Shown in pieces: positions 7,231 through 12,877 of a stretch of 45,813 nucleotides of DNA (position 1 is the stretch's first letter; each line of letters starts with the position of its first letter). The notes under the pieces were generated by a model. That model was not told the DNA's origin. It did not search any database and saw only the letters and a list, made by a program, of their open reading frames with translations. Source of the stretch: Thermohalobacter berrensis (GTDB lineage Bacteria; Bacillota; Clostridia; Tissierellales; Thermohalobacteraceae); NCBI RefSeq assembly GCF_003609645.1, contig NZ_MCIB01000015.1:1-45813 (forward strand), given 5' to 3'. The translations under genes and the position numbers were made by a program.

Positions 7231-7668
7231 ATGGATAAAAAATACTTAGTAGTAGATAAAGAGACTCTTCCAGATATTTTTGAAAAAGTTTTAATTGCAA
7301 AGGAATTATTGAAAAAAGGAAAGGTTAAAGGAGTAACAGAGGCAGTCAAGACAGTTGGTATAAGTAGAAGTACATTTTATAAATATAAAGACCATGTATT
7401 TACTCTTTCTGAAAGTAGCAAGGGTAGAAAAGTAACTATTTCTATGCTTTTATCCCATAAGCTTGGAGTTTTATCACATATATTAAATATAATTGCTGAA
7501 AAAAGGGGGAATATATTAACTATAAATCAAGATATACCAATAAATAATATTGCAAATGTAACTATAACATTTGATATATCTAATTTAACCATAGGATTTG
7601 ATGATATTTTAGAGGAAATAGAAAAATCAGATGGTGTTGTTAAATTAGAACTAATTGCTATGGAATAA
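7231..7668 (+). CDS. pheB: ACT-domain regulator of the PheB/ThrR type
   Basis: A 145-residue protein with an N-terminal helix-turn-helix-like part ([16 protein letters not shown], about residues 46-61) and a C-terminal ACT domain starting near residue 69 ([19 protein letters not shown]), the usual PheB/UPF0735 architecture. Such proteins sit beside hom in many Firmicutes and some act as repressors of threonine-branch genes. The gene has its own promoter and ends 16 bases before the GTG of hom, so the two are co-transcribed. It probably senses an amino acid through the ACT domain; the ligand is not visible from sequence. Confidence 0.88.
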
Positions 7669-7684
7669 GGGGGAGGGAGTATTT

Positions 7685-8962
7685 GTGGAAAATTTGAAAC
7701 TAGGAATTCTCGGTATGGGGAATATTGGGACAGGTTTATATAAGATATTACAAATGAATAGGGAGAAAGTTGAAAATCTACTTGGTAGGAATGTTGAAAT
7801 ACGAAAAGTATTAGTAAGGAATTTAAATAAAAATAGGAAAATTGATATAGGAAAGGAATTACTGACAACAAAAGTAGAGGATATTATAGATGATCCAGAG
7901 ATTGATATTGTTGTTGAATTGATTGGGGGAATAAATCCAGCTGTTGATTATATAAAACGTTCTATTGAAAAAGGTAAACATGTTGTCACGGCTAATAAAG
8001 CAGTAATTGCTACTTATGGGAAAGAGTTAAGAAATTTAGCAGATGAAAAGGGAGTACAATTAAAATATGAGGCTAGTGTAGCAGGAGGTATACCTATAAT
8101 AGATACTTTAATAAATAGCCTTTCATCAAATGATGTAGAAGAAATAATAGGAATTATAAACGGTACTACTAATTATATTCTTACTCAAATGAGTCATTCA
8201 AATATATCCTTTGAAAATGCATTAAAAAAGGCTCAAGAAAAGGGATATGCAGAGGCTGATCCTACTTCGGATGTTGAAGGATATGATGCAGCATTTAAGC
8301 TAACAATATTATCGGCTGTTGCATTTGGTGAAACTATTTCTCCAGATGATATATCTAGGGAAGGGATAACTAAAGTTTGTCAAGAAGATATTAAATATGC
8401 CTCTAAATTGGATTATAATGTTAAGTTATTGGCATCAGCTAAGAAGTATAATAATTCTTTAGAGCTTCATGTCCATCCTGCATTAATTCCTAAAAAGCAT
8501 CCTTTAGCTTCAGTAGATAATGAGTTTAATGCATTGTTTGTTAGAGGTAATGCTGTTGGTGAACTTATGTTTTATGGTAAGGGGGCTGGTTCACTACCTA
8601 CAGGAAGTGCAGTATTGGCAGATATTATAACTATAGGTAAGACAAATAAAATGGAACAAATATCAGATAAGGTTATCACAAATAATGATTTAAAGATAAA
8701 TGGTCAAGGGATAGGTCAATATTATGTTAGGCTTAAGGTGATCGATAAACCTGGAGTATTAGGAAAAATTGCAACAACTTTTGGTGAATATAGAATTAGC
8801 CTAGATTCAGTAGTACAAATAGGAAGAGATGAAAAAATAGTGCCATTAGTTTTTATTACACATGAGATAGAAAAGTTAAAATTAGATAAGGCTTTAGAAG
8901 TAATAAGAGAATTTTCAGTAGTAAAGGAAGTTTCAAGTATATTAAAAGTAGAAAATTTATAA
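7685..8962 (+). CDS. hom: homoserine dehydrogenase
   Basis: Reduces aspartate semialdehyde to homoserine, the branch point to threonine and methionine. The N-terminal Rossmann motif is GILGMGNIGTG, the catalytic domain contains KKAQEKGYAEADPTSDVEGYD, and a C-terminal ACT domain (about residues 345-425) gives feedback control. The frame is open to 7655, but GGGGGAGGG at 7669-7677 selects GTG 7685, giving 425 residues. It follows pheB with a 16-base gap. No thrB or thrC lies beside it. Confidence 0.93.
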   Translation: MENLKLGILGMGNIGTGLYKILQMNREKVENLLGRNVEIRKVLVRNLNKNRKIDIGKELLTTKVEDIIDDPEIDIVVELIGGINPAVDYIKRSIEKGKHVVTANKAVIATYGKELRNLADEKGVQLKYEASVAGGIPIIDTLINSLSSNDVEEIIGIINGTTNYILTQMSHSNISFENALKKAQEKGYAEADPTSDVEGYDAAFKLTILSAVAFGETISPDDISREGITKVCQEDIKYASKLDYNVKLLASAKKYNNSLELHVHPALIPKKHPLASVDNEFNALFVRGNAVGELMFYGKGAGSLPTGSAVLADIITIGKTNKMEQISDKVITNNDLKINGQGIGQYYVRLKVIDKPGVLGKIATTFGEYRISLDSVVQIGRDEKIVPLVFITHEIEKLKLDKALEVIREFSVVKEVSSILKVENL

Positions 8963-9099
8963 ATCTTATATATAGATATATTAACTATTGAAAAACTATT
9001 TACACTATTAACTATATTAGTATATATTAAAATTTATATTATACAATAAGACTATTAGTTATATAAAGAAAGGTTTCATATTTAAATTTATTATATACT

Positions 9100-9327
9100 T
9101 AGAAGCTATGAAGGGCAGTAGTAGATAATATTTTGTTTAAAGAGAGTCGGTGGTTGGTGTGAACCGATAACAAGAGTTGTTGAATCCGGCCTGGAGCTAT
9201 ATAGGGGTAAAAAACCTATGTCGGAGATTTCCGTTATCAAAAAGAGACTACTTTCTTAGTAAAACAAGGTGGTACCACGTAGATTTTTATCTCCGTCCTT
9301 GAAATTCAAGGACGGAGATTTTTTATT
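9100..9327 (+). promoter_or_regulatory. T-box leader, serine specifier
   Basis: A tRNA-sensing T-box riboswitch fills most of the 390-base gap after hom. The T-box motif AAGGTGGTACCACG is at 9266-9279, and the specifier region GAATCC is followed by GGCC and TGGAGCT. The triplet TCC at 9185-9187 has the same position, four bases before the conserved GGAGC-like box, as TGG in the Trp leader and GTA in the Val leader of this window, so it reads serine. The terminator has a long stem (about 9289-9303 with 9305-9319) and T tract to 9326. Uncharged tRNA-Ser should allow read-through into the decayed serA. Confidence 0.92.
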
Positions 9328-9352
9328 TATTAAATTAAAAGGGGGAAGAAAA

Positions 9353-10192
9353 TTGATAAAGAATTATTTTCTATGGGGAAGAAGCTTAAGGTTGTAGGTA
9401 GAGCAGGGAATGGAATAGATAATATAGATATTGATGAAGCAACAAAAAGGGGAGTTGTTGTTGCTAATACACCTGAAAGTAATAGTATATCGGCATGTGA
9501 ATTGACAGTAGGACTTCTACTTGCTCAGGCTAGAAATATATGTAATGCAAACAATTGTTTAAAAACAGGAGGATGGGATAGAAAAATATTTAAAGGTATA
9601 GAACTTTATAATAAGACACTAGGTATAATAGGCCTAGGTAGAATAGGATCATTGGTTGCTAAAAGAATGGCTTCATTTGGTATGAAAATAATAGCCTATG
9701 ATCCATATATATCAGATAAAAGGTTTGAAAGATTTGAAGCAGAGAAGAAAAATACATTACAGGATTTATTAAAAGAAGCAGATTTTATTACTATTCATAC
9801 TCCTAGAACTAAAGAAACGATGGGAATGATAGGAGAAAAAGAGATTAATTTAATGAAAAATGGAGTAAGAATAGTTAATGCTGCTAGAGGAGGAATTATA
9901 AAAGAAGAGCCACTTTTAAAAGGTCTTAAGAGTGGGAAAATAGCAAGTACAGGATTAGATGTCTATCAAAAAGAACCAAGTTTTAACAATCCATTATTTA
10001 AATTAGATAATGTTGTTGTAACTCCCCATATAGGAGCAACTACCTATGAAGCTCAACAAAATGTCGGTATAACTATAGCTAAACAAGTTTTAAGTGCACT
10101 AAAGGGTGAAATAGTTTCAAATGCTGTGAATTTACCAACTTTAAATCGAGAAGATGTAAAGAGTGTAAAACAATATATTGAACTTATGGAGA
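9353..10192 (+). pseudogene. serA: serA (phosphoglycerate dehydrogenase) remnant, both ends lost
   Basis: The open part from ATG 9373 encodes the NAD-binding core of D-3-phosphoglycerate dehydrogenase: KLKVVGRAG, GLGRIGSLVAKR, NAARGG, the KEP loop and TPHIGATT. About 60 N-terminal residues are missing. The ribosome site GGGGGA (9341-9346) leads to TTG 9353, whose frame stops at 9397 after 14 codons, while the SerA frame upstream of 9373 reads DKELFSMGKKLK, the expected joining sequence. So a deletion has joined a start codon out of frame to the middle of serA. After LMEK (10186-10194) the frame enters DUF1015, so the intervening and ACT domains of long SerA, about 200 residues, are also gone. 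ATG 9373 has no ribosome site. Activity is unlikely. Confidence 0.85.
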
Positions 10193-10723
10193 AGTTTAGA
10201 GCTTTTAAAGGTGTAAGGCCAAATGATGAATTGGCTGAAAAGGTTGCTTTATTACTCTATGATGTTATGAATAGGAATAAAGCTAAAGAAAAATTTTATG
10301 TTGAAACTTATGAAGGTAAAGGGACAGTATAAACCAACAAAAAAACATACATTTGGCATGTATCTAAATGAAAAATGGTATAAATTAGTTACTAAAGAAG
10401 GAATATATGATGAAACTGATCCTGTTGATAGGTTAGATGTTACAATTATGCACAAAAATTTACTAGAACCTATTTTAGGAATAAAAGATCCAAGAAGGGA
10501 TAAGAGAATAGATTTTATTGGTGGTATTAGGGGTCTTAAGGAATTGGAAAATAGAGTATCAAATGATATGAAGGTTGCTTTTTCTATGTATCCAACAACT
10601 ATGGAAGATTTGTTAGAGGTAGCTGATGCAGGAAAAATTATGCCCCCCAAATCCACTTGGTTTGAACCTAAATTAAGAAGTGGGTTATTTATTCATAAAT
10701 TGTCAAATTGTAATTTTTACTAA
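10186..10723 (+). pseudogene. DUF1015 gene remnant: central deletion plus frameshift
   Basis: DUF1015 proteins are about 400 residues and often follow serA in clostridia. Here the N-terminal segment (FRAFKGVRPNDELAEKVA to YDVMN, 10195-10272) jumps at about 10280-10292 to a late segment (EKFYVETYEGKG), losing roughly 230 codons. One surplus base near 10312-10322 shifts the frame, giving a stop at 10332. The C-terminal part continues in the next frame (QYKPTKKHTFGMYL, DPRRDKRIDFIGG, MPPKSTWFEPKLRSG) to the stop at 10723. Without its start, middle and frame it cannot make the normal protein. The function of intact DUF1015 proteins is not established. Confidence 0.85.
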
Positions 10724-10816
10724 AAATATTCTTAGTATAAATTAATCTTTTTTGAATACCTTCTATCCTAATAGATAAAAATATAAACGTATAAACTTAA
10801 GTTAGAAGGTGATAAA

Positions 10817-12877
10817 ATGATAACTAAGAAAAAAACTAATAGACTTATAAATGAAAAATCTCCATATTTACTTCAACATGCCCATAACCCTGTGGATTGG
10901 TATCCTTGGAGTGAAGAAGCCTTTGAGAAGGCAAAAAAAGAGGATAAACCAATATTTCTAAGTATTGGGTATTCCACCTGTCATTGGTGTCATGTGATGG
11001 AAAGAGAATCCTTTGAGGATGAAGAAGTTGCTAAACTGTTAAACGAAAATTTTGTATCTATAAAGGTAGATAGAGAAGAAAGACCTGATATTGATAGTAT
11101 TTATATGACCTTTTGCCAAGCATTGACTGGTCATGGAGGATGGCCACTTACAATATTTATGACACCAGATAAAAAACCCTTTTATGCTGGTACTTATTTT
11201 CCGAAGGAGAGTAAGTTTGGTCGTAATGGATTATTAGATATTCTTGAGAATATTAAGGAAGCCTGGCAGAATAGTAGAGAAGAGTTAATAGATGCAAGTG
11301 AAAAAATTGTTAACTCTATTGAAAGTTCTATAGTTGCAGAAAATAAGGTTAAAATTGATAAAGAAACTATCCATAAAACTTTTGAAGAATTAGATTATCT
11401 TTATGATTCTGTATATGGAGGCTTTGGAAATGCGCCTAAATTTCCTATACCCCATATTTTATCTTTTTTGCTTCGATATTGGAAAGTAACTAAAAATAAT
11501 AAGGCCCTTAAAATGGTTGAAAAAACATTAAAATCAATGTATAAGGGCGGTATTTTTGACCATATTGGGTTTGGTTTTTCTAGATATTCAACAGATAGAA
11601 AATGGCTAGTTCCACATTTTGAAAAGATGTTATATGACAATGCACTTCTTACAATAGCTTATACTGAAGCATATCAAGTAACTAAAAATAGTCTATATAA
11701 AGAAATAGCTCAAAAAATATTAACATATATTTTAAGGGATATGACTTCACCTGAAGGTGGTTTCTATTCTGCAGAAGATGCAGATTCTGAAGGAGTAGAA
11801 GGTAAGTTTTATGTGTGGTCAGTTGAGGAAGTAAATGGTGTTTTAAGTGAAGAATTTGGGGAACTTTTTAGTAAATATTACGATATAAGTAAAGAAGGAA
11901 ATTTTGAGGGAAAAAACATCCCCAACTTAATAAAACAGGATATTGATAAAATACAAAATGATGATGACATAAAGAATAATTTAGATATCCTAAGACAAAA
12001 GCTCTTTTTATTTAGAGAAAAAAGAACTCATCCCCATAAAGATGATAAAATCCTAACTTCTTGGAATGGACTTATGATTGCAGCAATGGCAATAGCAGGA
12101 AGAGTATTTAACAGATTACAGTATATCGATGCAGCTAGAAGGGCGGTTGATTTCATATTTAAAAAACTAGTTAGGGATGATGGAAGGCTTCTGGCTAGGT
12201 ATAGAGATGGACATTCTGCATATTTAGGTTATTTAGAAGATTATGCATTTTTAATATGGGGATTAATTGAGCTTTACCAAGCAACCTTTAATATTGAGTA
12301 TTTAGATAAAGCAAAAAAATTAAACGATGAAATGATTAGGCTTTTCTGGGATGAAAAAGATGGAGGCTTCTATTTATATGGAAAGGATAGTGAACAGTTA
12401 ATAGTTAGGCCTAAGGAGATATATGATGGAGCAATACCTTCAGGAAATTCAGTAGCAGCATTAAATATGTTAAGATTAGCCAAATTAACAAAAGATGAAT
12501 CACTTAGAGAAAAGGTTCAAATTATGTTTGAAACCTTTGGAGGAAGAGTAAAAGAATCTCCTAACTCATATACTCACTTTATGATGGCGTTATTATTTAA
12601 CAATGTAGAAAACAAAGAAGTTGTTTTAGCTGGCAATAAAGGAGATAATAGTACTAAAGATTTTATAAAAGAGATAAATAATAGATTTTTACCTTTCACT
12701 ACTGTTTTATTAAATGATAATAATGAAAAATTAGAGAAAATAGTTCCTTTTGTAAAAGAACAAAAGAAAATAGATGATAATGCTACAGCATATGTATGTG
12801 AGAAATATTCTTGTATTGAGCCTACCACAGATATAAAAAGCTTTTCTGGAATATTAGATAAAGAAATTAATATATAA
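10817..12877 (+). CDS. yyaL: YyaL/SPATA20 family protein with thioredoxin-like domain (DUF255)
   Basis: A 686-residue cytoplasmic protein. The N-terminal thioredoxin-like domain (about 1-165) opens with the diagnostic [21 protein letters not shown] and has a CHWC redox motif in STCHWCHVM. The rest is an alpha/alpha barrel resembling N-acylglucosamine epimerases and glycosidases, with repeats such as [12 protein letters not shown] and DGAIPSGNS. The length matches the family. AGAAGGTG precedes ATG 10817. The family is widespread but its activity is not established. It follows the decayed serA-DUF1015 with no terminator between, so T-box read-through could reach it. Confidence 0.9.

Follow-up and report, generated by a model that had tools for sequence, protein, structure and literature searches.

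T-box control of serA is already in print. According to the passages on serA in PMC8002221, a serine T-box riboswitch with an AGC specifier belongs to serA of Paenibacillus polymyxa, and UCC was the specifier predicted for the serA T-boxes of C. acetobutylicum and C. tetani. The leader described here comes from Thermohalobacter berrensis and lies in a stretch of 45,813 nucleotides (NZ_MCIB01000015.1, positions 1 to 45,813), called the window below. As far as the same passages allow comparison, it shares with the P. polymyxa T-box a serine specifier in stem I, the UGGU core, an intrinsic terminator and the position before serA, and its UCC specifier is the one predicted for the two clostridia; it differs from the P. 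polymyxa system (PMC8002221) in having UCC instead of AGC and in that serA and the DUF1015 gene of the window are broken by deletions. What is new is a pseudogene locus that is well resolved and has kept its sensor intact, and the matches listed for the literature on T-box or riboswitch pseudogenes and on clostridial serA T-boxes give, in the portions of text that they display, no account of this locus.

Among pseudogenes of amino acid pathways, deletion-driven loss with a regulatory leader outlasting its genes is an ordinary event. In contrast to such leftover regulators in general, both the constraint on the T-box and an upper age bound of the damage are measurable here. The locus offers a snapshot of pathway loss, in which the structure of the RNA sensor is kept, the enzymes are gone and the recency of the loss is bounded; it is also a reminder that a good T-box match is no proof of a working target gene. 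The features of the locus and its neighbours are as follows.

7655..8962, forward strand: homoserine dehydrogenase gene, the intact upstream neighbour
9099..9303, forward strand: serine T-box leader (Rfam RF00230), orthologous to the leaders of full-length serA in relatives
9266-9279, forward strand: T-box core AAGGTGGTACCACG
9289..9319, forward strand: intrinsic terminator of the T-box, a stem of 14 pairs followed by a T run
9340..9345, forward strand: AGGGGG, resembling a ribosome-binding site, with no ordinary in-frame start codon close by (from the sequence)
9341..9351, forward strand: deletion junction 1, where the leader meets serA at about codon 55 (alignment with nine relatives, codon list)
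9349..10194, forward strand: serA remnant, residues ~55-336 of 530 (alignment, Pfam and Maledivibacter SerA matches)
10186..10194, forward strand: deletion junction 2, where the serA frame passes into the start of DUF1015 (alignments)
10186..10293, forward strand: N-terminal remnant of DUF1015, ~35 residues (alignment with 15 relatives)
10285..10293, forward strand: deletion junction 3, ~240 residues of DUF1015 absent, frame kept (alignment)
10298..10723, forward strand: C-terminal remnant of DUF1015 in the +1 frame, an ORF of 141 aa with an end like that of relatives, PPKSTWFEPKLRSGLFIHKL
10315..10326, forward strand: region of a one-base frameshift (offset of the ORFs; the first ORF stops at 10332)
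10817..12877, forward strand: next downstream gene, a thioredoxin-domain DUF255 protein (PF03190)

A preliminary description of this DNA had called the serine T-box complete, and the RF00230 model bears this out: it matches the leader over model positions 1-219 with 129.5 bits against a gathering score of 93. Judging by the sequence and the leader alignment, the serine specifier UCC occupies 9185-9187, within GAA-UCC (9182-9187) in stem I. The antiterminator helix agrees with the model except for one non-standard pair, and the terminator competes with it; Rfam marks three more non-standard pairs, all in the middle stems, which makes four. The fold of 9286-9332 has a free energy of -23.2 kcal/mol (z -7.9). 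With a full match above the gathering score, a serine specifier and a terminator opposed by an antiterminator, the leader still possesses the elements for reading uncharged tRNA-Ser and for selecting the antiterminator or the terminator.

The leader was aligned with eight others (n=9), in all nine of which GAA-UCC is invariant. The window forms 56 of the 59 pairs of the consensus structure, the other leaders forming 54-57, a comparison slightly favourable to the window since the consensus was computed with the window included. At 104 columns invariant among the other eight leaders the window has five private changes, the same test giving 0-11 private changes in 99-110 columns for the others. 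Four of the five make up two compensatory pairs, U-A to C-G at leader positions 19/92 and A-U to G-C at positions 53/67; two or more compensatory pairs arose in only 12 of 100,000 random draws of five columns. As 56 of 59 pairs are kept and four of five private changes are compensatory, the leader evolved as a working RNA, and its substitution pattern indicates structural constraint on the T-box in this lineage, a constraint that can predate the deletions.

The picture downstream is different in kind. The stretch 9334-10197 matches residues 50-337 of the 530-aa SerA of Maledivibacter at 72%. In an alignment with nine full-length SerA proteins (from Maledivibacter halophilus, locus L022, from six loci of the same order, and from loci L023 and L024) the homology extends from about K55 to K336, so that ~54 N-terminal and ~194 C-terminal residues are absent, and all nine proteins possess the segments that the window lacks. 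The NAD-binding stretch is kept, as are an R, an E and an H of the catalytic segments, to which we ascribe catalytic roles. Gone are the start of the substrate domain, including a conserved VRS stretch that presumably binds the substrate, and the C-terminal 194 residues, which hold the regulatory ACT region. The Pfam 2-Hacid_dh match starts at profile position 60 of 134, and many solved phosphoglycerate dehydrogenases match the remnant (read from the ATG at 9373), best from their residue 64-65. A phosphoglycerate dehydrogenase of the TIGR01327 type has complete substrate, NAD-binding and regulatory regions, and the remnant falls short of this.

At the first join the only ATG, GTG or TTG near the AGGGGG sequence is a TTG at 9353, which is out of frame and runs into TAG after 14 codons; the first in-frame ATG of the remnant stands at 9373, 27 bases beyond AGGGGG. 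At the second, the serA frame runs on from 10186 as the DUF1015 N-terminus MEKFRAFKGVRP..., residues 1-35, with the spacing found in relatives, and it has two replacements, P>L and E>K, where 15 relatives show no variation. The third passes, again in frame, from residue ~35 to ~277 of the 415 residues of DUF1015, and all 15 aligned relatives have the residues lost here. Joins 2 and 3 thus preserve the reading frame. PF06245 matches only the ORF 10298-10723, at profile positions 285-325 of 325, and the domain is incomplete. Altogether ~490 residues of coding sequence are absent from serA and DUF1015. Relative to intact orthologues the locus has suffered three deletions and one frameshift, as expected of a pseudogene; judged by the alignments, each piece is an unambiguous homologue and the observation goes beyond chance.

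Most of this had been anticipated in the preliminary description, which stated that the C-terminal part of serA is gone and its remainder joined to the start of DUF1015, that DUF1015 has lost its middle, and that a one-base shift splits what is left; the in-frame join at 10186, the gap of ~240 residues and the passage to the +1 frame at about 10315-10326 agree with all three statements. One further point needed correction. The leader had been supposed to join serA at about codon 60, at AAAG near 9358; the join is real and its place is another, because the codons AAA-ATT-GAT-AAA-GAA (9349-9363) already align with K-V-N-K-E of the relatives, which puts the junction within 9341-9351, at about codon 55. 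The short shared sequences that had been proposed fit join 2 (M-E-K) and join 3 (K-E in both parents of relatives); microhomology may have produced the deletions, and the loss may have gone stepwise, as the preliminary description suggested.

The remnants appear to have decayed little by point mutation. The serA piece has two private changes in 98 invariant columns (0-9 in 96-105 columns for the relatives), and the C-terminal part of DUF1015 has two in 50 (0-5 in 50-55); the N-terminal part of DUF1015 has two in 13 columns, where 13 of the 15 relatives have none. No stop codon occurs among the 272 serA codons read, which limits the time since inactivation to ~0.06-0.09 neutral substitutions per site (95%). 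Because odd substitutions are few in the protein pieces and the 272 serA codons are free of stops, the damage to the locus is, on this sequence evidence, to be considered young. The low point decay suggests that deletions outran it, and deletion seems to have been the faster process at this locus.

The explanation that we regard as highly probable is that deletions have recently cost the organism its serine synthesis and have left the sensor in place. The ancestor would have had the serine T-box followed by a full-length serA and a DUF1015 gene; between or before these two genes there may have been one resembling phosphoserine transaminase. Three deletions, together of at least ~1.5 kb, and one frameshift would then have taken out the start, the middle and the joins. 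Under serine starvation the T-box would now transcribe scrap, and serine would not be restored; as the gene content suggests, serine would be obtained from outside or from glycine via GlyA. Transcription, auxotrophy and the order of events are matters that we infer.

The relatives give the measure of what has been lost. Of 248 other genomes that belong to the order, six encode SerA of the window's type (E<=1e-90), the open frames being 531-581 aa long. Six of nine serA loci scanned have a serine T-box upstream of full-length serA (L048, L049, L051, L052, L053 and L022, the T-box of L022, Maledivibacter halophilus, scoring below the gathering score); in L023 the serine T-box stands upstream of an aminotransferase-serA pair, and L050 and L024 have no T-box by serA in the DNA scanned. 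A serine T-box is also present in L021, where serA runs off the contig. In L051 (3188-3639) and L052 (3188-3638), both of one genus, two serine T-boxes stand in tandem before full-length serA. The six loci have in common with the window an orthologous leader and the same type of SerA; they differ in that serA is of full length and does not adjoin DUF1015 (for L022 this was judged within 10.8 kb). In L048, L049, L051, L052 and L053 DUF1015 stands beside an aminotransferase gene on another contig, in four of the five with a short serA between them. L022 resembles the window further in having a homoserine dehydrogenase-like gene (by reading of its translation) upstream of the T-box and serA.

Of the 18 DUF1015 loci of relatives (L002-L019), 17 have serA, a class V aminotransferase gene or both of these at a distance of up to 1.5 kb, the aminotransferase in 14 and serA in 15; in L012 the aminotransferase gene stands between serA and DUF1015. 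Among the relatives examined none has a full-length serA directly adjoining DUF1015, the nearest cases being short or differently built serA genes, and for this reason the ancestral gene order is one that we infer. By analogy with these loci, the deletions may also have removed an aminotransferase gene. Closer to the window, the three genomes of the same family (G001-G003) gave no match to homoserine dehydrogenase at 1e-20 (in a search run without a positive control), none to DUF1015 and none to this SerA at 1e-90; the absence of homoserine dehydrogenase and DUF1015 matches suggests that amino acid synthesis has been widely lost in the family.

Searches of the organism's own genome (2.76 Mb in 40 contigs, completeness 100%) yield little that could replace the lost enzymes. 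The preliminary description had proposed looking there for another serA, serC and serB, and the outcome accords with loss: no other SerA of this type in a protein search, no serC (TIGR01364) at E<=0.001, and no serB (TIGR00338) above the cut-off, with five weak HAD-like matches. Outside the window, SerA matched two short dehydrogenases (at 38% and 27%) as well as the beta subunit of serine ammonia-lyase. The 2-hydroxyacid dehydrogenases C38:87372 and C1:472860 could in principle perform the first step of serine synthesis. As a substitute SerA, C38:87372 was set aside, its best model being glyoxylate reductase (436.8 bits against a cut-off of 455); similar proteins are also encoded in G001 and G002. 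The serC model itself matched 11 of 14 controls, four of them above its cut-off, and the class V aminotransferase of the order has no close match in the genome. Three proteins that match over part of their length (29-35%) were rejected as substitutes for serC; they score 301-332 bits with Aminotran_5 and by reading of their translations resemble cysteine desulfurases. The genome has one GlyA match above the cut-off and both the alpha and beta subunits of L-serine ammonia-lyase, on contig C38. On this gene content the cell appears able to degrade serine and unable to make it from phosphoglycerate.

DUF1015 deserves attention: it is co-located with serine-synthesis genes, is here broken together with them, and may act in serine metabolism at a step that has so far gone unrecognised. 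We advance only tentatively, as an improbable proposition, that it catalyses the final step of serine synthesis in these Firmicutes, from phosphoserine to serine; if so, the locus would record how the pathway lost its beginning and its end together, both under a single serine sensor. In favour of such a role are the neighbourhood in 17 of 18 relatives' loci, the fact that the only DUF1015 match in the own genome is the window locus, broken along with serA, and the lack of serB above the cut-off in all 60 genomes searched, the own genome included. The last result suggests that serB of this order is not of the classical kind; however, the 60 comprise DUF1015 carriers and non-carriers alike, and because 41 relatives without DUF1015 also lack serB at the cut-off, its absence is not specific to carriers, which lowers the probability of the role. 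Further against it, serB-like matches below the cut-off occur in nine of the 60 genomes, two of them carriers (G019 and G052), and two of three DUF1015 control genomes (Bacteroides ihuae and Methanosarcina acetivorans) have serB above the cut-off. A profile search of solved structures with DUF1015 gave nothing informative, and a literature search joining DUF1015 with serine found nothing. The idea that DUF1015 is related to SerK, the serine kinase of archaea, finds no support in the structure search or in the relevant part of PMC5120207.

Returning to the locus itself, three readings other than recent loss have to be weighed, and we hold two of them, a useful fusion protein and a captured T-box, to be unlikely. 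According to the former, the ORF 9373-10332 encodes a short protein that still has a function, made up of the NAD-binding core of SerA and a DUF1015 stub, under the control of the serine T-box. Two of the three joins being in frame, the well conserved serA piece with its intact NAD-binding stretch, the run of 272 codons without a stop and the mere two private changes in 98 invariant columns are consistent with such a protein. However, its first in-frame ATG is 27 bases away from the sequence resembling a ribosome-binding site, the start of the substrate domain has gone with the VRS stretch, and the stub lacks the middle of DUF1015 and has the P>L and E>K replacements where the relatives do not vary, so that we assign this reading a very small probability.

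Hardly to be expected is the capture of the T-box by the thioredoxin-domain gene 10817-12877, which read-through on serine starvation would then drive. The leader is structurally intact, and the only terminator-like site in 8900-10900 is that of the T-box itself. Positive support is lacking, though: the constraint on the T-box may be older than the deletions, only a single genome is known to pair it with this gene, and a promoter-like site stands at 10700-10727, although shuffled sequence contains about as many sites of this kind (10.3 expected, against 14 found). That the contig is collapsed at this point through an assembly or sequencing error, with intact genes in the organism, would be a natural suspicion in an assembly of 40 contigs, yet it is most improbable, as it requires four independent defects within 1 kb, while the other ORFs of the window show no evident breaks in their list and the absence of serC, with no serB above the cut-off, fits genuine loss.

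Between the remnants and the thioredoxin-domain gene the window has an inverted repeat, ACCTTCTA ... TAGAAGGT, at 10758-10810, the 3' arm of which overlaps that gene's ribosome-binding site (the gene begins at 10817); many shuffles of this region fold no worse (z -1.4). The genome as a whole harbors 17 T-boxes. A second one with a UCC specifier precedes the ORF of locus L039, which by reading of its translation resembles a seryl-tRNA synthetase. Two others precede transport-like genes rather than genes of tRNA synthetases, again by reading of the translations: the T-box at G000:C36:128772-129034 (L041) stands before a small membrane protein that looks like a tryptophan transporter, and that at G000:C36:105652-105870 (L044) before an ABC-type binding lipoprotein.
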